Positions 4,606 to 42,160 of a DNA stretch of 64,000 nucleotides are shown here, piece by piece; the stretch's first letter is position 1, and every line of letters starts with the position of its first letter. This DNA comes from Pseudoduganella albidiflava. GTDB taxonomy: Bacteria; Pseudomonadota; Gammaproteobacteria; Burkholderiales; Burkholderiaceae_D. Location: positions 6,448,001 to 6,512,000 of the forward strand of contig NZ_CP036401.1 of the NCBI RefSeq assembly GCF_004322755.1, in the 5' to 3' direction. Made by a program: the position numbers and the translations under genes. A model generated the notes under the pieces. That model had not been told where the DNA came from and did no database searches. It saw only the letters and a list, made by a program, of their open reading frames with translations.

Positions 4606-6429
4606 TCAGTTCAGCCGGCTCAACGATACCTCGAAGGTCGCGGCATCCTGGAAACCGATGACACGGCTGCCGGCGATTTCGCGGCCATTGCGGTCGAAAA
4701 AGATAATCCCCGGCGGGCCGAATAAATTGAAGCGTTTCAGCAGCGCCTTGTCGTCGTCGTTATTCGCGGTGACATCGACCTGCAGCCAGATCGTATTGCC
4801 GAGTTTCTGCTGCACCGCGGGTTTGCTGAACGTCAGTTTCTCCATTTCCTTGCAAGCCACGCACCAGTCGGCGTAAAAATCCAGCATCACCGTCTTGCCG
4901 CCGGTATCGGCCAGAATACGATCCAGCTCGGCCACGTTTTTGATCCGCTTGAATGGCAATTCATCGGCGGCGCCTTCGCGCAAATGCGCCAGCGGTGCCA
5001 AGGGATCGCGCCCGCCAGTGCCCACGCCGATCATCTGGACAATACCAAAGCCGATGAACAACGCGGCGATGGCTTGCGCCGGCCAGCCTTTATGATGCCG
5101 CAGTAAATAAATGCCATAGGCAATACCCAGCACTGTCCACCCGGCCATCTGTACTGTTGCCGGTAATACGGGCGATACCAGCCACCATGCCATAGCCAGC
5201 AGCAACACGCCAAAGAAGCGCTTGACCGCATCCATCCACGCGCCCGCTTTCGGCAACAGGGCGCCGGCCGAAACACCGGCCAATATCAGCGGAACGCTCA
5301 TGCCGGCCGCCATCGAAAACAGCGCGGTGCCGCCCATCACCACGTCGCGTGTCTGGCTGATATACACGAGCGCGCCGGCCAGCGGCGCCGCCACGCAGGG
5401 GCCGACGATCAGGGCCGAGATGGCGCCCATGACAAACACGCCCGCGAGCTTGCCGCGCGACTGGCGGCCCGACGCGGCGGCAAGCCGGGTCTGGAGCGCA
5501 GCGGGAACCTGCAGTTCGTACACGCCGAACATCGACAGCGCGAACAGGACCAGCAGCATGCCGAAGCCGCCCAGCACCCAGGGATTCTGCAGCGCGGCGG
5601 CCAGGCCTTCGCCCGCCAGCCCGGCGGCGACACCCAGCGCGGTGTAGACGATCGCCATGCCCAGCGAATAACTCAGCGACAACGCCAGCCCGCGTGCACG
5701 GCCGGCCCCTTTGCCTTCGCCGATGACGATCGACGACAGGATCGGCACCATCGGCAGCACGCAGGGCGTGAACGCCAGGCCCAGCCCGAGCAGCAGGAAC
5801 AGCGGCACGATGACGGTCATGCGGCCGCCCTGCAACGCGCGTTCGATGCGGCCCAGCTCGCTTTGAGGGGGCGGCGCACCCGCTGGAACGCCGCCTGGTT
5901 CGCCCTGCGCGGTGGCTGCCGGCGGTGTGTCGCCAGGTGCATCCATCATCGCGTCGCCCGGGCGGCTCATTGCGGGCAGGCCGAAAGCCCCGGCTGCGGA
6001 CGCCGGACCGCCTGCCGGCGACAACTGCGCCGTGGCATCCTGCGGCGAATAGCACAGGCCCTTGTCGGAACAGCCCTGGCCGGTGGCGGTCAGCGTGAAC
6101 GGGCCGGCCGCCTCGACCGGCACGCGGATCGTCACGCGCTGGCGGTAGGTTTCCACGTCCTTGTTGAAGGTTTCATCGAACTTGACCTTGCCGGGCGGGA
6201 TCCGCGGCGTGCCGAGCTGCGCGCCAGCCGCCCTGAACTTGAACTGCTCGCGGTACATGTAGTACCCCTCGGCGATGCGCCAGGTGGCTTCGATGGTCTG
6301 CGCATCGGCCATGCGGGCGGAAAACTGGAAGGCGACGTGCGGCGGCAGGAACTCTTCCTCGGCGCGGGCGGGTGCCAGCAGCGACAGGAAGGCGGCGAAC
6401 AGGATCAGGAGGCGGGGAAGGAAAGACAT
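4606..6429 (-). CDS. dsbD: Thiol:disulfide interchange protein DsbD (protein-disulfide reductase)
   Basis: 607 residues from MSFLPRLLILF, chosen because it opens a clean signal peptide ending in APARA; an in-frame ATG at 6453 and the open frame to 6510 are alternatives. The N-terminal alpha domain carries the cysteine pair in GCSDKGLCYSP (near 118). A central eight-helix membrane domain has a redox cysteine in FTPCVLPM (near 218) and its partner in GPCVAAPL. A C-terminal thioredoxin domain holds the CxxC in DWCVACKEM (near 520). DsbD passes electrons from cytoplasmic thioredoxin to periplasmic reductants for disulfide isomerisation and cytochrome c maturation. All six catalytic cysteines are present. 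Confidence 0.97.
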   Translation of the reverse strand: MSFLPRLLILFAAFLSLLAPARAEEEFLPPHVAFQFSARMADAQTIEATWRIAEGYYMYREQFKFRAAGAQLGTPRIPPGKVKFDETFNKDVETYRQRVTIRVPVEAAGPFTLTATGQGCSDKGLCYSPQDATAQLSPAGGPASAAGAFGLPAMSRPGDAMMDAPGDTPPAATAQGEPGGVPAGAPPPQSELGRIERALQGGRMTVIVPLFLLLGLGLAFTPCVLPMVPILSSIVIGEGKGAGRARGLALSLSYSLGMAIVYTALGVAAGLAGEGLAAALQNPWVLGGFGMLLVLFALSMFGVYELQVPAALQTRLAAASGRQSRGKLAGVFVMGAISALIVGPCVAAPLAGALVYISQTRDVVMGGTALFSMAAGMSVPLILAGVSAGALLPKAGAWMDAVKRFFGVLLLAMAWWLVSPVLPATVQMAGWTVLGIAYGIYLLRHHKGWPAQAIAALFIGFGIVQMIGVGTGGRDPLAPLAHLREGAADELPFKRIKNVAELDRILADTGGKTVMLDFYADWCVACKEMEKLTFSKPAVQQKLGNTIWLQVDVTANNDDDKALLKRFNLFGPPGIIFFDRNGREIAGSRVIGFQDAATFEVSLSRLN

Positions 6430-31076: not shown

Positions 31077-31235
31077 ATGAAAAGCACCGATAATAGCGCC
31101 CCATGCCCGTGTGCGCGTCCGTCGCGCGCCGTGGCTGGCGCGCCGGCCCCTGCGCGCCCATCTGTGCGCATGCCGCTTGTGCGCTCATCCGTCATGCCAT
31201 TGCTCATCCGGGGCCTGCCCGTCCGATATCGCCGT

Positions 31236-33062
31236 ATGCCACCGTTGCTCCAGAATTTGCGCTGGCCGCGCCCGGCCCACCTGTTCATCCTGCTCAGTTA
31301 CCTGGCGCTGTCGCTGGTGCCGTGGATCCGCATCCTGCTCGACAATCCCGTGCGCGATGGCTGGCAGATCCTCGGCATCGAGATCGCCGCCTGGACCGCC
31401 GTCTGGGCGGTGTTCAAGCGCCCGGCCTATTTTCACTGGCTGCTGATCCCCGCGTTCATGGCGCTGCCCACGGAAATCTACCTGCTGGCGTTCTATGGCC
31501 AGGGCATCTCCACGCACCACCTGGGCATCCTGGCAGAAACCAGCCCCGTCGAGGCACTCGAATTCCTCGGCGGCACCGTATGGACGATGCTGGCCGTGAT
31601 GGCCGGCGTGGCCGCCTGGTGGGTGATGACGTTCCGCGCCGCGCGCCAGACCCGCGGCCTGGACTGGCAGGGTGCGTCGCGCTGGGTGGCCCTCGCGCTG
31701 CTGGGCGGCTTCGCGCTGCTGGCGGCCTATGCGTGGGAATTCGGTGCCGGCAAAATCCCCTCCGCCTCCGCTTCGGCCTCCGCCCCGGCGCAGGCCGGCG
31801 ACGGCAGCCGCGGCGCCCACGCCACCGGCTGGCCGTTGCCGCCGCTGCCGCAATGGGCCCGCCCGCCCGTGCACTTCAAGTCCTTCATCGATTCCTGGCC
31901 GTTCGGCCTGGCCGCGCGCGGCATCGATTTCTACCGCGAGCGGCGCTACCTCGCCCAGCTGAACGAAACCAGCCGCCATTTCAGGTTCGGCGCCGACCAG
32001 CCCGGGGCCGACGACGTACCGGAAACGATCGTGCTCGTGATCGGCGAATCGTCGCGCCAGGACCGCTGGAGCCTGTTCGGCTACGGGCGCGAGACCAACC
32101 CGCTGCTGGCCCGGGAAGCCAACCTGGTACCGCTGCCGGACGTGATCACGGCGGTCTCGGCCACGCGGCTGTCGGTCCCCGTGATCATTTCCCGCAAGCC
32201 GGCGCGGCAGAGCCTGAAAGATGGCTTCAGCGAAAAATCCTTCATCACCGCCTACAAGGAAGCGGGCTTCCGTACCTGGTGGCTGTCGAACCAGATCTCG
32301 TTCGGCAAGTTCGACACGCCGGTGTCCGTGTTCGCCCGCGAGGCGGACGTGGTGCAGTTCACCAACCTGGGCGGCTTCTCGGACAAGTCCACGCTCGACG
32401 AGGTCTTGTTCGAACCGCTGCGCGTGGCGATGGCCGACCGCACGCCGAAAAAGCTGATCGTGCTGCACACGCTGGGCAGCCACTGGAACTACAGCCAGCG
32501 CCACCCGCAGGCGTTCGACCGCTGGCAGCCATCGCTGTTCGGCATCGACAAGCCGGTCTATACCGACATCGCCATCAAGCCGCGGCTGAACAACAGCTAC
32601 GACAACACCATCCTGTACACCGACTGGTTCCTGGCGCAGGTGCTCGATCGCCTGAAATCGGCCAGGCAGCCGGCCGCCCTGCTGTACGTGGCCGACCATG
32701 GCCAGACGCTGTACGACGGCGCCTGCCGCATCGCCTTCCATGGCCACAACACGCAATATGAATTCCGCGTGCCGGCATTCATGTGGTACTCGGAACAATA
32801 TGGCGACCGCTACCCGGACAAGGTGCGCCAGCTGCACCGGCACCGCAAGGCGAAACTGGCCACCGAAAACATGTTCCACACGCTGCTGGACATGGCCGAC
32901 ATCCGCTACCCCGCCGACCGCCTGGAATGGAGCTTCCTGTCCCCTACCTTCAAGCGCCACACCCGCTGGGTGGACAGCTATGGCTGGACGGACTACGACA
33001 ACGCCACGCTGAAGGGCGATTGCCGCGAAGTCATCGCCAAGAAACCGAAAAAACGGCGATAG
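31236..33062 (+). CDS. EptA-like phosphoethanolamine transferase (sulfatase-fold membrane enzyme)
   Basis: 608 residues from MPPLLQNLRWPRPAHLFILL. In-frame ATGs at 31077, 31170 and 31194 are possible, but the added residues resemble nothing and no start has a good ribosome site. Four to five N-terminal membrane helices (to about 165) are followed by a periplasmic alkaline-phosphatase-fold domain. It has VLVIGESSRQDRWSLFGYGR (metal-binding Glu), a Thr nucleophile candidate in TAVSATRLSVPV, and YVADHGQTLYD plus FHGHNTQYEFRVP (metal-binding Asp and His). The family adds phosphoethanolamine to lipid A, heptose or glycans, and EptA gives resistance to cationic peptides. The acceptor here is inferred, not shown. 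Confidence 0.85.
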   Translation: MPPLLQNLRWPRPAHLFILLSYLALSLVPWIRILLDNPVRDGWQILGIEIAAWTAVWAVFKRPAYFHWLLIPAFMALPTEIYLLAFYGQGISTHHLGILAETSPVEALEFLGGTVWTMLAVMAGVAAWWVMTFRAARQTRGLDWQGASRWVALALLGGFALLAAYAWEFGAGKIPSASASASAPAQAGDGSRGAHATGWPLPPLPQWARPPVHFKSFIDSWPFGLAARGIDFYRERRYLAQLNETSRHFRFGADQPGADDVPETIVLVIGESSRQDRWSLFGYGRETNPLLAREANLVPLPDVITAVSATRLSVPVIISRKPARQSLKDGFSEKSFITAYKEAGFRTWWLSNQISFGKFDTPVSVFAREADVVQFTNLGGFSDKSTLDEVLFEPLRVAMADRTPKKLIVLHTLGSHWNYSQRHPQAFDRWQPSLFGIDKPVYTDIAIKPRLNNSYDNTILYTDWFLAQVLDRLKSARQPAALLYVADHGQTLYDGACRIAFHGHNTQYEFRVPAFMWYSEQYGDRYPDKVRQLHRHRKAKLATENMFHTLLDMADIRYPADRLEWSFLSPTFKRHTRWVDSYGWTDYDNATLKGDCREVIAKKPKKRR

Positions 33063-33078
33063 CAACTGGACAGCTGCG

Positions 33079-33114
33079 CCGGACGCTACCGGACAGTACC
33101 GGACAAGACCGGAC
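33079..33114 (+). promoter_or_regulatory. Four CCGGAC boxes at exact 10-bp spacing (candidate enhancer for the sigma-54 regulator)
   Basis: CCGGAC begins at 33079, 33089, 33099 and 33109, in the 150-base gap between the transferase and the exporter operon. The boxes are on the same face of the helix. The centre lies about 65 bp upstream of the -24 element, the usual zone for bacterial enhancer-binding proteins. Assigning them to the NtrC-type regulator of the operon is inference. Confidence 0.55.
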
Positions 33115-33161
33115 GGCGGACACGCCACACTGAAACGCTGTAAAAACAATTACTTAGCATC

Positions 33162-33177
33162 TGGCACGGTTTCTGCA
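33162..33177 (+). promoter_or_regulatory. Sigma-54 (RpoN) promoter of the exporter operon
   Basis: TGGCACGGTTTCTGCA matches the -24/-12 consensus TGGCACG-N4-TTGCA except for one T to C change. The invariant GG (33163-33164) and GC (33175-33176) are separated by exactly 10 bases. It lies 35 bases before the adaptor ATG. The operon ends with a sigma-54 activator gene, which makes a chance match unlikely. Confidence 0.7.
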
Positions 33178-33212
33178 ATGTAAAAGGCAACATTGACCTT
33201 GCAGGCCCCACC

Positions 33213-34484
33213 ATGATCCGCGACACCTCCCACCAGGACACCGTCCTCGCCACGCCCCCCGGCCGGCAATGGCAGCGCCGCGCGCTGCTGGCCGGCGGCG
33301 TGGCCCTGCTCGCCGCCGCCGCCTTCCTGGCAGTGCGCAACTGGTCCGCCAGCGAGCATTCGGTCAGCGCGGCGCGCCTGCGCGTCGCCGAAGTCACGCG
33401 CGGCACGCTGGTCCGCGATGCCGCCGTCAACGGCCGCATCGTGGCCGCCGTCAGCCCCACGCTGTACTCGACGGCGCCCTCCTCCACCGTCACGCTGAAG
33501 GTGCGCGCCGGCGATACCGTGAAACAGGGCGATGTGCTGGCCGTGCTGGAATCGCCCGACCTGACCGACGAGCTGAAGAAAGAGCAGTCGAGCTACCAGG
33601 AACTGGCCGCCGAAGTGGCGCGGCAGCAGATCCTGGCACGCAAGCAGAAGCTGCTGGCGCAGCGCGATGCCGACACGGCCGAGATCGAACGCCTGTCCGC
33701 GCAGCGCACACTGGAGCGCTACGACGGCGTGGCCAACGAAGGCGTGGTCGCCAAGATCGATTACCAGAAAGCCAGGGATGCGCTGCGCGCCGCCGAGATC
33801 CGGGCACGCCATGCCATCCAGGCATCCACGCTGGAGAAGGACGATGTCGACCTGGCGCTGCGCACGAAAACGGCGCAGCTGGAACGGCAGAAGCTGGTGC
33901 TGGCCAATGCCCGGCGCCGCGTCGACGAGCTGACCGTGCGCGCCCCCGTGGACGGCTTCATCGGGACCTTGAGCGTGGCCAACCGCAGCGTGGTGCAGGC
34001 CAACACGCCGCTGATGACGCTGGTCGACCTGTCCGCGCTGGAAGTCGAACTCGAAGTGCCGGAAACCTATGTCAACGACCTGGGCCTGGGCATGCGCGCC
34101 GAGATCACGGTGAACGGCGCCACCACGCCCGGCAAGCTGTCGGCCCTGTCGCCGGAAGTGGTGAAGAACCAGGTGCTGGCGCGCGTGCGCTTCGAAGGCC
34201 GGCAGCCTGACGGCCTGCGCCAGAGCCAGCGCGTGCAGGCACGCCTGCTGATCGACGAGAAAGCCAATGTGCTGCTGCTGCCGCGCGGGCCCTTCGTGGA
34301 ATCCGAAGGCGGCCGCTACGCCTACCTCGTGCAGGATGGCGTGGCCGTGCGCACGCCGATCCGCATGGGCGCCACCAGCATCAACGCCGTGGAAATCCTG
34401 TCCGGCCTGAAACAGGGCGACAGGGTCGTCGTCGCCGGCACCGAAACATTCGAGAACGCCAAGCGCGTCGCCATCAACAAGTAA
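33213..34484 (+). CDS. Periplasmic adaptor of a MacAB-like ABC exporter (HlyD/MacA family)
   Basis: 423 residues. A short cytoplasmic head (1-27) precedes one membrane helix (about 28-46), a lipoyl half (LKVRAGDTVKQGDVLAVLES), a long coiled-coil hairpin (about 115-230; ELKKEQSSYQELAAEVARQQ) and the second lipoyl half (LTVRAPVDGFIGTLSVANRS). The end is beta-rich. It is anchored in the inner membrane and should link the ATPase/permease complex to an outer-membrane channel not encoded here. It is the first gene of a six-gene unit behind a sigma-54 promoter. Confidence 0.92.
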   Translation: MIRDTSHQDTVLATPPGRQWQRRALLAGGVALLAAAAFLAVRNWSASEHSVSAARLRVAEVTRGTLVRDAAVNGRIVAAVSPTLYSTAPSSTVTLKVRAGDTVKQGDVLAVLESPDLTDELKKEQSSYQELAAEVARQQILARKQKLLAQRDADTAEIERLSAQRTLERYDGVANEGVVAKIDYQKARDALRAAEIRARHAIQASTLEKDDVDLALRTKTAQLERQKLVLANARRRVDELTVRAPVDGFIGTLSVANRSVVQANTPLMTLVDLSALEVELEVPETYVNDLGLGMRAEITVNGATTPGKLSALSPEVVKNQVLARVRFEGRQPDGLRQSQRVQARLLIDEKANVLLLPRGPFVESEGGRYAYLVQDGVAVRTPIRMGATSINAVEILSGLKQGDRVVVAGTETFENAKRVAINK

Positions 34485-34529
34485 GCAGTCAAGTAAGCAG
34501 TCATCACTCACTTCCGACAAGAGGCCACC

Positions 34530-35222
<693 letters not shown>

Positions 35223-35231
35223 GGAGACGGC

Positions 35232-36557
35232 ATGTTCTCGTCCCATATGTTCGGTTATTACTTCAAACTGGGCCTGCGCAACCTGCGCCGCAACCCGGCG
35301 CTGACGGCGCTGATGGTGCTCACGCTGGCCATCGGCGTGGCCGCCAGCGTGTCGACGCTGACGATCCTGCATGTCATGTCCGGCAACCCGATGCCGCACA
35401 AGAGCGAGCGGATGATCTCGGTCGTGTTCAACAACGGCCCGCTGGAAGGCTATTCGCCGGGCGACAAACCCAACGACGACCAGGTCAGCTACACCGATGC
35501 GATGAATCTCCAGGCCAGCGGCCAGGGTGCGCGGCGCACGGCGATGATGGGGCTGGGCGGCACGATCCAGCCGGATCGCAAGGATATCGCGCCGTTCGTC
35601 GTCACCGGCGGCGGCCCCTATCGCGATTTCTTCGCCATGTTCGAGATTCCCTTCCTGCATGGCCAGGCGTGGAGCGAGGCGGACGACAAGGCGGGTGCCG
35701 ACGTGATGGTCCTGACCCGCGCGCTGTCGGAAAAGCTGTATGGCAACGACAACCCGGTGGGCCGGCGGCTGCGCTACAACGGTTTCGATTTCCTGATCAC
35801 GGGCGTTATCGACAATTGGGATCCGATCCCGCGCTTCCACCGCATCGTGGGCATGGGCGCATTCGACGAGGAGGATGAATTCTTCCTGCCCATGGCAACG
35901 GCCGTGCGGCACGAATGGAACAACAGCGGCAGCACCAATTGCACCAGCAGCGCCGGTGCCGGCTACCAGGCCTTCATCCGCTCCGAGTGCACCTGGATCC
36001 AGTTCTGGTTCGAGCTGCACTCCGCGGCCGACCGCGCCGCGTTGCAGGACTGGATCGACGGCTATGCGGCCGAGCAGCGCAAGCTGGGCCGCATGCCGCG
36101 CAATGCACCGAACCACCTGTACAACCTCACCGAATGGCTGGAACACCTGAAGGTGGTTGGCAACGACAACAAGCTGTCGGCCTGGCTCGCATTCGGCTTC
36201 CTGCTGCTGTGCCTGGTGAACACCGTGGGCCTGTTGCTGGCGAAGTTTTCCGTACGGGCGCCGGAAGTTGGCGTGCGCCGCGCCCTGGGCGCCTCGCGCA
36301 AGGAGATCTTTCATCAATTCCTGGTCGAGACGGCCGTCATCGGCCTGGCCGGTGGCGTACTGGGCCTGCTGCTGGCACTGGGCGCACTGGGCCTGATCTC
36401 GCTGCAGTCGAAAGAGCTGGCGCTCGTGGCGCGGATGGACTGGGCCATGCTGTGCGTGACGTTCGCAATGGCCGTGGCCGCGGCGATCCTGGCCGGCCTG
36501 CTGCCCACCTGGCGGGCCTGCCAGGTGACCCCTGCCCTGCAACTGAAATCCCAATAG
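35232..36557 (+). CDS. ABC transporter permease 1 (MacB/FtsX fold)
   Basis: 441 residues. The first helix is at about 22-45; a periplasmic core of roughly 270 residues follows, and three more helices sit at about 318-340, 367-395 and 404-425. The coupling segment is VRRALGASRKEIFHQFLVET. Within the core, GSTNCTSSAGAGYQAFIRSE has a Cys pair with a later Cys that could form a disulfide. This four-helix topology moves substrates from the periplasm outward. It lacks an ATPase domain, unlike true MacB, and probably pairs with the second permease as a heterodimer. GGAG precedes the ATG. Confidence 0.93.
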   Translation: MFSSHMFGYYFKLGLRNLRRNPALTALMVLTLAIGVAASVSTLTILHVMSGNPMPHKSERMISVVFNNGPLEGYSPGDKPNDDQVSYTDAMNLQASGQGARRTAMMGLGGTIQPDRKDIAPFVVTGGGPYRDFFAMFEIPFLHGQAWSEADDKAGADVMVLTRALSEKLYGNDNPVGRRLRYNGFDFLITGVIDNWDPIPRFHRIVGMGAFDEEDEFFLPMATAVRHEWNNSGSTNCTSSAGAGYQAFIRSECTWIQFWFELHSAADRAALQDWIDGYAAEQRKLGRMPRNAPNHLYNLTEWLEHLKVVGNDNKLSAWLAFGFLLLCLVNTVGLLLAKFSVRAPEVGVRRALGASRKEIFHQFLVETAVIGLAGGVLGLLLALGALGLISLQSKELALVARMDWAMLCVTFAMAVAAAILAGLLPTWRACQVTPALQLKSQ

Positions 36558-36566
36558 GAGACCGAG

Positions 36567-37820
36567 ATGGCATTCAACCCGGAATTTCGTCCCATCCTGG
36601 CCGCGCTGATGCGCAACAAGACCGGCCCCGTCCTCGTGGCCGTGCAGGTTGCACTGAGCCTCGCGATCCTGGCCAACGCGCTGCATATCGTCAACGTGCG
36701 CCAGGCCGTCATGGACCGGCCGTCGGGCGTGGAGCGCGAGGCCGACATCTTCCACTTGCAGGTCAGCGAACTCAATTCCGCAAGCACCTTCAACGACATG
36801 GTGGCGCAACAGGTCCGCCAGGCCGCGCTCCTGCGCGCCGTGCCGGGCGTGGAATCGGTGGCGCAGACCAACCAGGTTCCGCTGTCCAATTCGGGCAACA
36901 ATACGGGCATGGCCGCGAGCCGCGACCAGGTGAAGGTGTCGACGGGAACCGCGTACTACGTGTCACCCGATTCGCTGGTCAAGACATGGGGCCTGAAACT
37001 CGTGGAAGGCCGCGACTTCCAGCCCACGGAGGTGGTGAACCTGGACATGACGAAGGACGCCTATGAAACCAGCGTGATCATCATCACCCGGGCGCTGGCG
37101 AAAAAAGTGTGGCCCGACTCGGCCAGTTATGTCGGCAAGCAGGTGTACTTCGGCACCGGCAGCGATGCCACGGCGGCCCGCGTGGTCGGCGTGGTCGAGC
37201 GTCTGCAATCGACCGGCGCCGAGGTGGGCGAACGGGGCGAGATGTCGATCATCCAGCCGATTCGCCGCATCACGTCGCCGCGCGCCATGTACACGGTGCG
37301 CGCCGAACCGGGCCAGCGCGACCGCGTGATGAAGGAAACGGAAGCGGTCCTGCGCAAGGATGCCAACAACCAGATCGTGGTACGTGCGAAAACGTTCGAT
37401 GAGGATCGCAGGAACCGCTATCGCGCAGACCGCGGCCTGGCCTGGATGCTGGTCGCCGTCAGCGTGCTGCTGATGCTGGTCACCGCCAGCGGCATCGTCG
37501 GCATGGCCAGCCTGTGGGTCACGCAGCGGCGCAAGCAGATCGGCGTGCGCCGTGCACTGGGGGCGCGCCGGGTGGACATCCTGCGCTACTTCATCACCGA
37601 GAACGTGATGATCACCAGCGCCGGTGTGGCCGCCGGGCTGCTAGGCGCGCTGGGCCTGAACCACCTGCTGGTGACGAACCTGGAACTGGCACGGCTGCCG
37701 GCCAGCTACCTGCTGGCCGGCGCCGCGGCCTTCCTGGCCCTGGGCATCGCCGCCGTGTATGGCCCGGCCTGGCGCGCGGCCAGCATTTCGCCGGCCACCG
37801 CCACCCGCGGGGTGGTTTGA
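36567..37820 (+). CDS. ABC transporter permease 2 (MacB/FtsX fold)
   Basis: 417 residues with the same plan as its neighbour: helix 1 (about 18-36), a MacB-like periplasmic core, and helices at about 292-315, 345-365 and 380-400. The coupling segment is VRRALGARRVDILRYFITEN. The two permeases share topology and these motifs but diverge in the core, which suggests an old duplication and an asymmetric substrate path. It lies 9 bases after permease 1, with GGAG before the ATG. Confidence 0.93.
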   Translation: MAFNPEFRPILAALMRNKTGPVLVAVQVALSLAILANALHIVNVRQAVMDRPSGVEREADIFHLQVSELNSASTFNDMVAQQVRQAALLRAVPGVESVAQTNQVPLSNSGNNTGMAASRDQVKVSTGTAYYVSPDSLVKTWGLKLVEGRDFQPTEVVNLDMTKDAYETSVIIITRALAKKVWPDSASYVGKQVYFGTGSDATAARVVGVVERLQSTGAEVGERGEMSIIQPIRRITSPRAMYTVRAEPGQRDRVMKETEAVLRKDANNQIVVRAKTFDEDRRNRYRADRGLAWMLVAVSVLLMLVTASGIVGMASLWVTQRRKQIGVRRALGARRVDILRYFITENVMITSAGVAAGLLGALGLNHLLVTNLELARLPASYLLAGAAAFLALGIAAVYGPAWRAASISPATATRGVV

Positions 37821-37864
37821 GGAAGTGCCGCAATGAAGTACAGCAATGTTATGCTGACGCCACC

Positions 37865-39205
37865 ATGCCGACCGTACTGATCATCGACGACAATGCCGCC
37901 ATCACAATGGCGCTGGAAGTGCTGTTTTCACTGCACGATATCGCCGCCCTGCGCGCGGCTTCACCCGACGAGGGCCTGGCCCTGCTCGAGCGCAACGCCG
38001 CCACGGTCGACCTGGTCATCCAGGACATGAACTTCAGTGCCGACACCACGTCCGGCGAGGAAGGTGTGGCGCTGTTCCGGGCGATCCGCAAGCGCCACCC
38101 CGACCTGCCGGTCATCCTGCTCACGGCATGGACGCACCTGGATGCGGCGGTGGACCTGATCAAGGCCGGCGCCGCCGATTACCTGGCCAAGCCCTGGAAC
38201 GACGGGCGGCTGGTGGCCACCGTCAAGAACCTGCTGGAGCTGGGCCAGGCCAACCGCGCGCTGCGCCAGCGGCTGCAGGGCGAGCTGCGCCAGCGGCGCG
38301 AACTGGAGCAATACGACCTGCGCGGCATCGTCTGGCAAGATCCGGCCACCGAACGCGTGCTGCACCTGGCCTGCCAGGTGGCGCGGGCCGACGTGCCGGT
38401 GCTGGTCAGCGGTCCGAACGGCACCGGCAAGGAACGCATCGCCGAGATCATCCAGGCCAACTCGCCGGTGGCGGACGGCCCGTTCGTGGTGCTCAATTGC
38501 GGCGCGCTGCCGGCGGAACTGATCGAGGCGGAACTGTTCGGCGCCGATGCCGGTGCCTACACCGGCGCGTCGAAAGCCCGCGAAGGCAAGTTCGAGGCGG
38601 CCGATGGCGGCACCCTGTTCCTCGACGAAATCGGCAACCTGCCGCTGGCCGGCCAGATGAAACTGCTGCGGGTGCTGGAGACGGGCCGCTTCGAGCGCCT
38701 GGGCTCGAACCGCGAGCGGAAGGTGGCGGTGCGCGTGGTCAGCGCCACGAATGCCGACCTGCCGGCCATGATCCGCGCCGGCACCTTTCGCGAAGACCTG
38801 TATTACCGCCTGAATGTGATCGAACTGAAATTGCCGGCGCTGGCCGCACGGCCGGGCGACATCCTGCCGCTGGCGCGCCACTTCCTCGGCACCGGCAAGT
38901 CGCTGCGCCCGGATGCCGAAGCGGCGCTGCTGGCGCATGCCTGGCCCGGCAATGTGCGCGAGCTGAAGAACGTGATGGCGCGTGCCCGGCTGCTGTCCGC
39001 CGGGCCGGAGGTGGGCGCCGCCGACCTGGGGCTGCCCGCGGCGACCGCTCCCGCCGGCGCGCCGGACGTTGAACCGGACCGCGACGCGATCAGTTCCGCG
39101 CTGGCGCGCGCCAACGGCATCGTGGCGCAGGCGGCCGCGGAACTGGGCCTGTCGCGCCAGGCGCTGTACCGCCGCATGGAGCGGCTCGGCATCGCGCGGC
39201 CCTGA
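37865..39205 (+). CDS. Sigma-54-dependent response regulator (NtrC family)
   Basis: 446 residues from MPTVLIIDDNAAITMALEVL; the frame is open upstream into the permease gene but the receiver domain starts here. Receiver: D8, D9 and phospho-acceptor D54, with the AKPW lysine. AAA+ domain (about 150-380): Walker A GPNGTGKE, the sigma-54-contacting loop GAYTGA (GAFTGA family), and Walker B TLFLDEIG. A Fis-type helix-turn-helix ends the protein (AQAAAELGLSRQALYRRMER). It should activate its own operon from the CCGGAC boxes. The kinase ATG overlaps its stop (TGATG). Confidence 0.96.
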   Translation: MPTVLIIDDNAAITMALEVLFSLHDIAALRAASPDEGLALLERNAATVDLVIQDMNFSADTTSGEEGVALFRAIRKRHPDLPVILLTAWTHLDAAVDLIKAGAADYLAKPWNDGRLVATVKNLLELGQANRALRQRLQGELRQRRELEQYDLRGIVWQDPATERVLHLACQVARADVPVLVSGPNGTGKERIAEIIQANSPVADGPFVVLNCGALPAELIEAELFGADAGAYTGASKAREGKFEAADGGTLFLDEIGNLPLAGQMKLLRVLETGRFERLGSNRERKVAVRVVSATNADLPAMIRAGTFREDLYYRLNVIELKLPALAARPGDILPLARHFLGTGKSLRPDAEAALLAHAWPGNVRELKNVMARARLLSAGPEVGAADLGLPAATAPAGAPDVEPDRDAISSALARANGIVAQAAAELGLSRQALYRRMERLGIARP

Positions 39206-40605
39206 TGGCGCATCCGCCGGGCGGCAACCCTGCCGGCAAGGATGGCCGCGCAGCCATCGATACCGGAACACGCCCGAAAGCCATCCGGCTTTCGCTTCTT
39301 ACGCGCTGGTCGGCGCTGGTCGGCACCCTGCTCACCGTCGGCATCCTGATCGCGCTGGCGCTCGACCATTATTTTCCCGACCGGCCCTGGCTCGTCCTGT
39401 CGGTGTGCCTGCTGTGCGTGGTGCCGCTGTCGGTGATCACGATCCGCTCGCAGCTCAAGCCGATCATCTCGCTGTACCGGGCACTGGCCGGCACCGTCAC
39501 GAGCTACCGCGACGGCGACTTCTCCTTCAGCCTGCACTGGCCCCAGGGCGACGAGCTGCGCGAACTGGTGGACGCCCATAACGCGCTGGGCGAAGTGTTG
39601 CGCGAACAGCGCCTCAACCTCGTGCAGCGCGAACTGCTGCTGGACACCATGGTGCAGAACACGCCGGTGGCGATGCTGCTGGTGGCCGATGCGGGCGCGA
39701 TCGTGTACGCCAACGTGGCGGCGCGGCACATGCTGCACGGCGGGCGCAAGCTCGAAGGACACCGGCTGGACGCGCTGCTGGAACGTTCCGCCGTGCCGCT
39801 GCGCGAAGCGGTCGCCCGTGGCGGCGATGGCCTGTTCACGACCGGCGAGGGCGACAGCGAGGAAGTGTTCCACCTGGCGCGCCGCCGCTTCAACCTGAAC
39901 GGCCGGCGCCACGAATTGCTGCTGCTGCGCCAGCTCACGCTGGAGTTGCGGCGCCAGGAAGTGCAGACATGGAAGAAAGTGATCCGCGTGATCAGCCATG
40001 AACTGAACAATTCGCTGGCCCCGCTGGCGTCGCTCGCCCATTCCGGCGCGGAACTGGTGCGCCGTGGGCAGACCGAACGCCTGCCGCAGATCCTTGCCAC
40101 GATCGAGGAACGCACCCGCCACCTGGAAGGCTTCATCCTCGGCTATGCGCGCTTCGCCAAGCTGCCGGCGCCGCGCCGCCAGCCGCACCCATGGCCCGGC
40201 TTCGTGGCCCGCCTGGCCGAACAGGTTCCGTTCCGGGTGGTGGGCACGCTGCCGGCCGAAGCGGCGGCCTTCGATGCCGCCCAGCTGGAGCAGGCGCTGC
40301 TGAACCTGCTGAAGAACGCCCATGAATCGGGTTCGCCGCCGGAGGCCGTCGCGCTGGACATCCGCCACGTGCAGGACACCGTGCGCATCGAAGTGCGGGA
40401 TCGGGGGCCGGGCATGAGCGATACGGTGCTGGCGAACGCACTGGTGCCCTTCTATTCCACCAAGCGCAGCGGCACCGGCCTGGGTCTGGCGCTGGCGCGC
40501 GAGATCGCCGAGGCACATGGCGGCCGGATCACGCTGGCGAACCGCGACGGTGGCGGCCTGGCCGTGACACTGCTGTTGCCGGCCAGCCTGCCGGACGCCG
40601 CCTGA
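39205..40605 (+). CDS. Sensor histidine kinase (NtrB-like, PAS domain)
   Basis: 466 residues. Two membrane helices (about 38-58 and 65-82) enclose only a very short periplasmic turn, so the signal is probably sensed in the membrane or cytoplasm. HAMP-like and PAS regions (about 150-225) are followed by the H-box VISHELNNSLAPLASLAHSG with His near 267. The ATPase domain has LLNLLKNAHESG, DRGPGM and GTGLGLALAREIAEAHGGRI. It overlaps the regulator gene by one base. The arrangement exporter-regulator-kinase suggests sensing of the exported compound or the membrane damage it causes. Confidence 0.94.
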   Translation: MAHPPGGNPAGKDGRAAIDTGTRPKAIRLSLLTRWSALVGTLLTVGILIALALDHYFPDRPWLVLSVCLLCVVPLSVITIRSQLKPIISLYRALAGTVTSYRDGDFSFSLHWPQGDELRELVDAHNALGEVLREQRLNLVQRELLLDTMVQNTPVAMLLVADAGAIVYANVAARHMLHGGRKLEGHRLDALLERSAVPLREAVARGGDGLFTTGEGDSEEVFHLARRRFNLNGRRHELLLLRQLTLELRRQEVQTWKKVIRVISHELNNSLAPLASLAHSGAELVRRGQTERLPQILATIEERTRHLEGFILGYARFAKLPAPRRQPHPWPGFVARLAEQVPFRVVGTLPAEAAAFDAAQLEQALLNLLKNAHESGSPPEAVALDIRHVQDTVRIEVRDRGPGMSDTVLANALVPFYSTKRSGTGLGLALAREIAEAHGGRITLANRDGGGLAVTLLLPASLPDAA

Positions 40606-40621
40606 GGCAGGCGGTAGCTGA

Positions 40622-40657
40622 GGGTCACGGAGCGAGTCACTGAGGGAGTCACTGAGG
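40622..40657. repeat. Short 12-bp tandem repeat
   Basis: GAGTCACTGAGG occurs at 40634-40645 and 40646-40657, preceded by a decayed copy (GGGTCACGGAGC, 40622-40633). It lies just after the kinase stop, in the 223-base gap before the PEP-CTERM gene. The rest of the gap holds no clear promoter. Confidence 0.55.
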
Positions 40658-40828
40658 GGACAACCGAAGGTGCCACCCGGGAATCGTGTCCGGCAGGCAT
40701 GATGTCGCGCAATTTGACGCATTGAACTTGCGCAAAAGTCAACAAGAAAGGCCTCGCAACTGAACCCGGCAGTTCTAATGTGTCCCTACGCGGCCCGCGT
40801 CGGGCCGCACTTCAACCGGGGAATCATC

Positions 40829-41374
40829 ATGAAATGTCACTCGTTTTTACCGGGCGCGGCACTGGCAGCCGCGCTGGCCTTCGCGGGGGCGGCGCAGGCC
40901 GACAACTCCGTCACCAATGTCAACCTGGGCGGCGCCGCCGATGGCACGCTGTCGGCGCACTTCGGCGTCACGCACATCGAGACGGGCGCCTTCATCGACA
41001 CGTTCAACTTCTCGCCCTCGGACGGCAGCTGGTTCGTCGACTCGAGCGTGGTCACGATCGGCTTCCAGCCGTTCTCAAACATCAACTTCGACAGGGCGGA
41101 GATTAACGGCAATGACATGACGCTGACGGACGACGGCGTCTTCGAATACGGCTGGCTGATCAATACGCCGATCATGGGCCCGCTGGTGCTGACGGTGTAT
41201 GGCACCGTGGAAGGCGCGATGGGGGGCGCTTCGGCCAGCTATGCGGGGACGATCAATATCAGTCCGGTTCCGGAGCCGGATACCTATGCAATGCTTTTTG
41301 GTGGCTTGGGGATGCTGGCCTGGCTGAGCCGAAGAAAACCATCAGTCGACATTAAAATGTCCAACAAGAATTAA
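40829..41374 (+). CDS. FxDxF family PEP-CTERM protein 1
   Basis: 181 residues from MKCHSFLPGAALAAALAFAG (GGGGAAT upstream). The signal peptide ends AGAAQA at about residue 27. The motif GAFIDTFNFSPSDG is the FxDxF signature of a PEP-CTERM subfamily. The C-terminal sorting signal is VPEPDTYAMLFGGLGMLAWL followed by SRRKP. The extra tail after the Arg cluster (SVDIKMSNKN) is longer than normal. The protein should be processed by an exosortase encoded elsewhere. A second member follows 300 bases downstream. Confidence 0.9.
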   Translation: MKCHSFLPGAALAAALAFAGAAQADNSVTNVNLGGAADGTLSAHFGVTHIETGAFIDTFNFSPSDGSWFVDSSVVTIGFQPFSNINFDRAEINGNDMTLTDDGVFEYGWLINTPIMGPLVLTVYGTVEGAMGGASASYAGTINISPVPEPDTYAMLFGGLGMLAWLSRRKPSVDIKMSNKN

Positions 41375-41674: not shown

Positions 41675-42160
41675 ATGAAATTGAAATCTCTCGTACTGGC
41701 AGCCGCACTGCTGCCCGCCTTCGGCTCCGCATTCGCCGATGACATCACCGTCGACCTGATCGGCGGCCCGAACGTCTACTCGGCACTCGTGGGCAACACC
41801 CACACCGAGGGCGCCTTCAGCGACACGTTCACCTTCACCGGCTTCGACGGTGTGGGCACGGTCTTCGCTGGCCTGATCAACAACGCCAGCGCCTGGAGCG
41901 ATGTAACGTTCACCGACGTAACGCTGAACGGCGTGGACGTTGCAACGGCCGACCTGGGTTCCCTGTCGATCGCTGCCATCCTGGGTCAGGATGTGTCCGG
42001 CCCGCTGACGCTGGTCGTGAACGGCACCGTCACCGGCGACGTGGCCAGCTACGGCGGCAACTTCACCGTGACGGCAGTTCCGGAACCTGCAACCTACGGC
42101 ATGCTGGCCGGCGGCCTGGGCGTGCTGGCCTTCGCAGCACGTCGTCGCAAACAGCAGTAA
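41675..42160 (+). CDS. FxDxF family PEP-CTERM protein 2
   Basis: 161 residues: signal peptide to FGSAFA (about 22), the signature GAFSDTFTFTGFDGVGTVFA, and the sorting signal VPEPATYGMLAGGLGVLAFA ending ARRRKQQ. It is a homologue of the preceding gene (same signature and layout), so a tandem duplication. CGACGAGG precedes the ATG. A strong terminator follows. Confidence 0.92.
   Translation: MKLKSLVLAAALLPAFGSAFADDITVDLIGGPNVYSALVGNTHTEGAFSDTFTFTGFDGVGTVFAGLINNASAWSDVTFTDVTLNGVDVATADLGSLSIAAILGQDVSGPLTLVVNGTVTGDVASYGGNFTVTAVPEPATYGMLAGGLGVLAFAARRRKQQ

Follow-up and report, generated by a model that had tools for sequence, protein, structure and literature searches.

How is an exporter operon that carries its own sigma-54 activator switched on, and in response to what? 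The question is raised by six genes at 33213-40605 on the + strand of a 64,000-nucleotide stretch of Pseudoduganella albidiflava contig NZ_CP036401.1 (positions 6,448,001 to 6,512,000; the whole stretch is called the window), part of a 7.4 Mb, single-contig genome of the Oxalobacteraceae type in which one rpoN gene was found. By Pfam and NCBIfam matches, these encode a periplasmic adaptor of the HlyD/RND_mfp type, MacA/DarC-like (A, 33213..34484), an ATP-binding cassette (ABC) ATPase (ABC_tran) of the LolD/DarD/MacB type (B, 34530..35222), a MacB_PCD plus FtsX permease (C1, 35232..36557), a second FtsX permease (C2, 36567..37820) and a response regulator with Response_reg, Sigma54_activat and HTH_8 domains, the last a Fis-type helix-turn-helix (HTH), and an ATG start (R, 37865..39205). 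The sixth gene, identified by Pfam and hydropathy, encodes a sensor histidine kinase (HATPase_c) with two transmembrane (TM) segments and the H-box ISHELNNSLAPL (K, 39205..40605); its closest named counterpart is that of Pseudoduganella umbonata, at 91%. A preliminary description of this DNA had taken the genes for one unit, and this view stands: they are separated by 45 (A-B), 9 (B-C1), 9 (C1-C2) and 44 bp (C2-R), with a 1 bp overlap between R and K, and of 80 named loci, 78 show the order A-B-C1-C2-R-K in full, while L047 and L113 run into contig ends before all six genes are complete.

We propose that the operon is a sigma-54-switched, self-activating envelope module directed against membrane-active or misplaced peptides, a reading to which we assign a probability of about 0.6. 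The regulatory anatomy (gene set, order, promoter, half-site array, IHF-like site, association with R and second sites in relatives) is well supported by sequence comparison; binding by R, phosphorylation, feedback, signal, substrate and outer channel are what we infer from it.

The predicted sigma-54 promoter, TGGCACGGTTTCTGC, occupies 33162..33176 (+). The preliminary description had placed it at 33162-33177, 35 bp before the first gene; the near-consensus element is indeed there, but it ends at 33176, 36 bp before the ATG. Its conservation was followed in 79 upstream regions, those of the window and the 78 complete named loci. Every one has a GG-N10-GC site starting TGGCA 46-62 bp before the ATG, and the stricter TGGCAY-N6-TGC is found in 77, against an expectation of 0.00025 per scanned window from the same loci, so that a chance origin of the element is excluded. 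The site thus conforms to the sigma-54 pattern (GG-N10-GC, TGGCAY...TGC); the form TGGCAY-N6-YGC occurs three times on the two strands of the 64-kb window, once before the operon.

Two further elements, absent from the preliminary description, lie upstream of this promoter. Six GGAC(A) half-sites (33068, 33081, 33091, 33101, 33111 and 33118) span 33068..33122 (+) and, judged by their conservation, form a probable upstream activating sequence bound by R. Just 5' of the -24 element is a site for integration host factor (IHF), or one like it, AAACAATTACTTA (33144..33156, +), with one mismatch to WATCARNNNNTTR, which we take to be the IHF consensus. When the 79 upstream regions are aligned on the -24/-12 element, the half-site array falls about 30-100 bp upstream of it, with a mean of 3.29 GGACA/TGTCC half-sites per 70 bp (minimum 1) against a background of 0.12 in the same loci, and at least two GGAC/GTCC in each region. 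Half-sites on the same strand are most often 9-10 bp apart, close to one turn of the helix, and a smaller maximum falls at 7. The IHF consensus between array and promoter is perfect in 67 regions and has one mismatch in 10 and two in 2 (0.003 expected). An array, an IHF site and a -24/-12 element in this order are the usual layout of promoters served by NtrC-class activators, and the GGACA/TGTCC array is probably the enhancer of R. A second promoter before R was looked for; there were isolated -24/-12-like matches in four loci and three half-sites in one, never a match together with an array.

The array also accompanies R among further relatives. Close relatives of C1 were found in 64 of 195 genomes of the window's family (E 1e-30), and relatives in 10 of 369 at class level and in 27 of 398 at phylum level, the own genome being counted each time and the last two samples overlapping; an order-level search with K (E 1e-50, five candidates scored per genome) gave at least 4 of 300 genomes, all in the own family. 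Forty further stretches were collected, 31 outside the family and 9 inside. The start of the adaptor gene could be read in 36, which leaves out L162 and L166 (without A) and L167 and L172 (A cut). A -24/-12-like site with at least two half-sites within 300 bp is present in 23 of the 28 loci with R and in none of the 8 without (Fisher p 4e-5, kinship ignored); outside the window's family alone the counts are 21/23 and 0/7. Transporters of the same kind with no R or K nearby, and with neither array nor -24/-12 element, were seen in L155, L158, L163, L164 and L183-L186; in L164 the permease genes come before those of the adaptor and ATPase. In a family of the Xanthomonas/Stenotrophomonas type, so called from the names of R relatives, the pattern TGTCCNNGGACA-N40-70-TGGCAY-N6-TGC occurs in 54 of 247 genomes, a single time in each, and never when reversed as a control; 29 of 30 checked loci have the site 34-65 bp before the adaptor gene, L240 showing no adaptor. 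Matching the constancy of the half-site, the HTH core of R, LGLSRQALYRRM, is conserved in 90% or more of 109 sequences. Mirror-tree correlations are 0.94-0.98 over 104 loci, to which we attach little weight, there being no species-tree control.

R has the other marks of an NtrC-class enhancer-binding regulator, a receiver QDMNF (with its D) and a GAYTGA loop, both conserved to that same degree among the 109 sequences. It is the naming of R and K as an NtrC/NtrB pair in the preliminary description that does not hold, for R scores 334 bits against 558.6 for TIGR01818 and K 56 against 240 for NF008293. K matches AtoS-like kinases best. It was rightly called a kinase, but Pfam sees no PAS domain in the window's K, though close relatives carry PF13188 or PF00989. 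Hydropathy places its hydrophobic segments at about 33-53 and 62-84, with a loop of some eight residues between them, and the loop is short in all 34 K rows listed; the layout is that of an intramembrane-sensing kinase. Of 94 rows, 92 have the same H-box, ISHELNNSLAP, and the remaining two, L075 and L083, are gapped there.

The enhancer and promoter are also found together away from the operon. A pattern joining the IHF core to the -24/-12 element matched in 61 of 195 Oxalobacteraceae genomes, with one match for the reversed control; the window's genome gave none because its own IHF-like site is imperfect. By manual count from the match list, 32 sites in operon-bearing Oxalobacteraceae lie elsewhere than at the operon, and all were read. 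Thirteen have at least three half-sites, and of these 12 precede TldD, followed by PmbA/TldE, and one an M61 peptidase. The other 19 have 0-1 half-sites and stand before genes which, read from their translations, are rtcB-, PEP-CTERM- or subtilisin-like, among others; in genomes of the family without the operon, 13 of 14 sites were read and none has two or more half-sites. The array is therefore not a general mark of sigma-54 promoters in Oxalobacteraceae. One more TldD locus, the thirteenth, comes from G106; its array is there but the IHF core is missing. Each of the 13 shares a contig with the operon, at a distance of about 22-33 kb (in some cases measured from C1), and their TldD proteins start MERRxFL, a twin-arginine-like (Tat-like) signal. 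Peptidase identities rest on Pfam for L204, L205, L266 and L276 and on tblastn for the remaining TldD loci. The M61 case (L205, G089; reverse strand near 6118) has an R-type array, an IHF-like site and a -24/-12 element before genes for an exported M61 peptidase and an alpha/beta hydrolase, in one genome only. Extra TGTCCGCGGACA sites occur in 12 genomes; among four examined closely, three have a clean -24/-12 element and L202 has none. In other families, arrays with clean -24/-12 elements stand before a DUF885 lipoprotein-like gene (G848), a gene for a 68-aa protein (G1038) and, in G1169, a gene whose lipoprotein-like product has DGSG repeats and no Pfam match. When the window's own genome was scanned, the two-GGAC pattern matched 8 times, the operon site accounting for two of these, against 11 in controls, and GGACA-N30-60-promoter gave 14 against 4. 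One candidate, three GGACA with a -24/-12-like match at G000 1144602-1144681, was set aside as it lies inside a long open reading frame. What can be read from these sites is that the same enhancer and promoter precede exported peptidase genes in some relatives, with no second target shown in the window's genome.

In the mechanism that we envisage, K, with two membrane segments and almost no outside domain, would respond to the condition of the membrane or the transporter and phosphorylate R. R would bind the GGACA/TGTCC array and, with the DNA bent by IHF, open sigma-54 polymerase at the -24/-12 element; pump, R and K would then rise together, a positive feedback. The pump would consist of the adaptor, the ATPase and a C1-C2 heterodimer, probably joined to an outer channel of the TolC type whose gene lies elsewhere, and would clear peptide-like, membrane-active or misplaced molecules. 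In some relatives R may also turn on exported peptidases, TldD/TldE with the Tat-like signal or M61, and these would break such peptides down. The earlier suggestion of auto-activation by a sigma-54 activator and kinase built into the operon is borne out, as far as a conserved enhancer and promoter can bear it out, and 'self-contained' is too narrow for those relatives in which the array and promoter also precede peptidase genes. TldD/E trims unfolded peptides irrespective of sequence, according to the accessible text of PMC5810440. With pump and such peptidases on one switch, a response to a single specific drug is a poorer fit than a response to peptides that are membrane-active or misplaced. 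More tentatively, and with the balance somewhat against it, the whole might be an undescribed Gram-negative response to peptide stress in the envelope, combining a Bce-like kinase coupled to its transporter within the membrane, a sigma-54 activator with a GGACA code, a split MacB-type pump and Tat-exported TldD/TldE switched on in trans.

Several observations weigh against the proposed peptide-stress module. Four of the 23 loci counted as having promoter and array (L160, L161, L189, L197) have a -12 element without GC, and five of the 28 with R (L165, L168, L169, L191, L198) have no promoter or array within 300 bp. A look at 700 bp, made post hoc, found candidate promoters or half-sites farther up in these five; in four, a small additional open reading frame follows them. 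The TldD loci are not independent since their neighbourhood is shared, and TldD sites are present in at least 12 of 64 operon-bearing genomes, the pattern missing variants; the extra sites of other families have different genes behind them. Pattern scans of the own genome found no intergenic array besides that of the operon, and there is no TldD in the window or within 60 kb on either side, so that the peptidase link is not shown for the window's strain. Finally, at the adaptor tip, where R-L-S is presumably the TolC-docking motif, the R is present in 117 of 117 sequences, whereas the L position has L in 3 and V in 78 and the S position S in 24 and A in 84. As to individual exceptions, the K gene of L165 has an intact open reading frame, and L191 has a 30-aa membrane-peptide-like reading frame between the promoter region and A, with a similar start seen by eye in L198.

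Other constructions of the same evidence can be put forward. The operon could be a Gram-negative counterpart of the Bce systems, with K switched by the working transporter (flux sensing) and not itself sensing peptides. The two TM segments and minimal loop of K and the encoding of a kinase with FtsX-type permeases agree with this, and the accessible text of PMC5985334 has Bce-type intramembrane-sensing kinases depending on an FtsX-type transporter, BceS requiring BceAB to respond; a short loop alone does not show transporter coupling, however, and with K best matched by AtoS-like kinases, R of the NtrC class and the fold match of C1 to BceB weak, at rank 46, we think this possible but on the unlikely side. 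Still less probable, in our view, is a mechanotransmission machine like Lol or FtsEX, not an exporter, that would extract lipoproteins or control cell-wall enzymes, with sigma-54 tying it to surface remodelling. A separate ATPase with two permeases is indeed the LolCDE arrangement, LolD is among the top ATPase matches, and Francke et al. link sigma-54 to the bacterial exterior in the accessible part of PMC3162934, but the adaptor gene comes first in all 78 complete named loci, as in tripartite exporters, and MacB is the top fold match of C1, ahead of LolC/LolE.

The peptidases admit a productive role in place of a destructive one: pump and TldD/TldE might mature and export an endogenous modified peptide, as for microcin B17 or darobactin, with sigma-54 timing the release. 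The ATPase, adaptor and C2 match the darobactin-exporter models DarD, DarC and DarB, and TldD/E cleaves the microcin leader in the accessible text of PMC5810440. Every Dar match is nevertheless below cut-off, the twin-arginine-like signal would have TldD act outside the cytoplasm, the count of genomes with TldD sites is at least 12 of the 64 that bear the operon, and no precursor or modifying enzyme was noticed beside the operon, where no dedicated search for them was made; we consider this route distinctly improbable. Least of all do we expect the -24/-12 element to belong to another sigma-54 regulon such as that of PEP-CTERM (PrsK/PrsR), to which we would give the barest chance. The PEP-CTERM response regulator is the second-best NCBIfam match of R and two FxDxF PEP-CTERM genes lie just 3' of the operon, but R and K fall far short of the cut-offs for PrsR and PrsK (329 against 502.6 and 61.5 against 300; TIGR02915/TIGR02916), the circuit is present in Xanthomonas/Stenotrophomonas-type genomes, and the 19 other sigma-54/IHF sites, several of them before exported genes read as PEP-CTERM-like or rtcB-like, have 0-1 half-sites.

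The operon varies in some relatives. Between a single ATPase gene and R, L156 (4540-15469) has four C1-C2 permease pairs in tandem and L181 (560-16912) six; several permease heterodimers may therefore share one ATPase and adaptor. Small exported-looking DUF4440 or PDZ proteins are encoded between C2 and R in L153 (10403-11038) and L157 (11309-11800) and between two permease pairs in L156 (6997-7611). Unrelated genes separate C2 from R in L067 (5562-7048), L093 (6346-7092) and L168 (7885-11232), where R and K may therefore need another transcript; read from translations, the inserts are, in that order, a short-chain-dehydrogenase-like gene on the other strand with a TetR-like one, a carbonic-anhydrase-like gene and a large reading frame. 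In the window, a phosphoethanolamine-transferase-like protein of the sulfatase fold is encoded 5' of the operon on the same strand (31077-33062), its listed NCBIfam scores far under cut-off, and is there in several relatives too. On the 3' side are the two FxDxF PEP-CTERM genes (40778-41374 and 41675-42160), the first with homologues behind the operon in part of the relatives. No RNA families were found at 32500-41000, and a PADLOC scan of A, C1, C2 and K gave just weak FtsX-domain matches of C1.

The bare link between sigma-54 and FtsX-like permeases is already in print: a 2025 survey (PMC12316311), in its accessible text, reports as first evidence that in gamma-Proteobacteria, Opitutia and Bacteroidia the COG0577 FtsX-like permeases are over-represented under predicted sigma-54 promoters. 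That enrichment is at COG level, without an operon, cognate activator, enhancer motif or peptidase co-regulation in the text available. In the accessible parts of the open-licence literature we found no paper on the operon or the GGACA motif, nor the dedicated circuit, enhancer code, association with R or peptidase targets; the operon goes unmentioned in those of Francke et al. and of PMC3224663, on the sigma-54 regulon of Xylella. For a widespread exporter family on which no experimental paper was found, the proposal would supply a defined switch, a binding motif open to testing and a set of candidate genes for co-regulation. The GGACA motif should allow targets to be listed in any genome holding R, and co-regulated peptidases would point to peptides as signal or substrate. 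If the proposal is true, the short list of envelope stress responses gains one that runs through sigma-54.

Compared with known systems, the transporter belongs with the MacB-like superfamily. C1 has the FtsX domain and, in a structure model (mean predicted local distance difference test score, pLDDT, 84.6), a MacB-type fold, its best PDB match being MacB 5gko, followed by other MacB-type, LolCDE, heme-exporter and YbbAP chains; C2, for which the model has a pLDDT of 87.9, was not part of the fold search. MacAB-TolC shares the adaptor and MacB-fold permease. The operon differs from it in an unfused ATPase, two different permeases and its own sigma-54 two-component pair, and the MacB model NF007826, with fused ATPase, is matched with at most 208 bits against 966. 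The preliminary description had called the split into two permeases unlike MacB, which is so, but this is an arrangement already known in the superfamily: the MacB review (PMC5985334), in the text accessible, names LolCE heterodimers and separately encoded nucleotide-binding domains, and puts MacAB of E. coli and Salmonella under PhoPQ. LolC, LolE and LolD equivalog cut-offs are not reached, and here an adaptor is present where Lol has none. DarBCD, the darobactin exporter, resembles the operon in adaptor, separate ATPase and permease halves, DarD being the top-scoring ATPase model and C2 also matching the C-terminal half of the DarB model; all scores are below the equivalog cut-offs, DarB is one model of 777 positions against two genes here, and no darobactin genes were noticed at the operon, no search having been aimed at them. 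The ADOP permease model TIGR03434 is matched, below cut-off, by C1 at positions 6-401 and by C2 at 411-801, so that each covers one half of it, and the operon differs in its split genes and partner ATPase gene. BceAB-BceRS, whose response regulator is OmpR-type, is alike in having an FtsX-type transporter encoded with a short-loop kinase and a response regulator, but it is a Gram-positive system that lacks an adaptor and has a single large permease.

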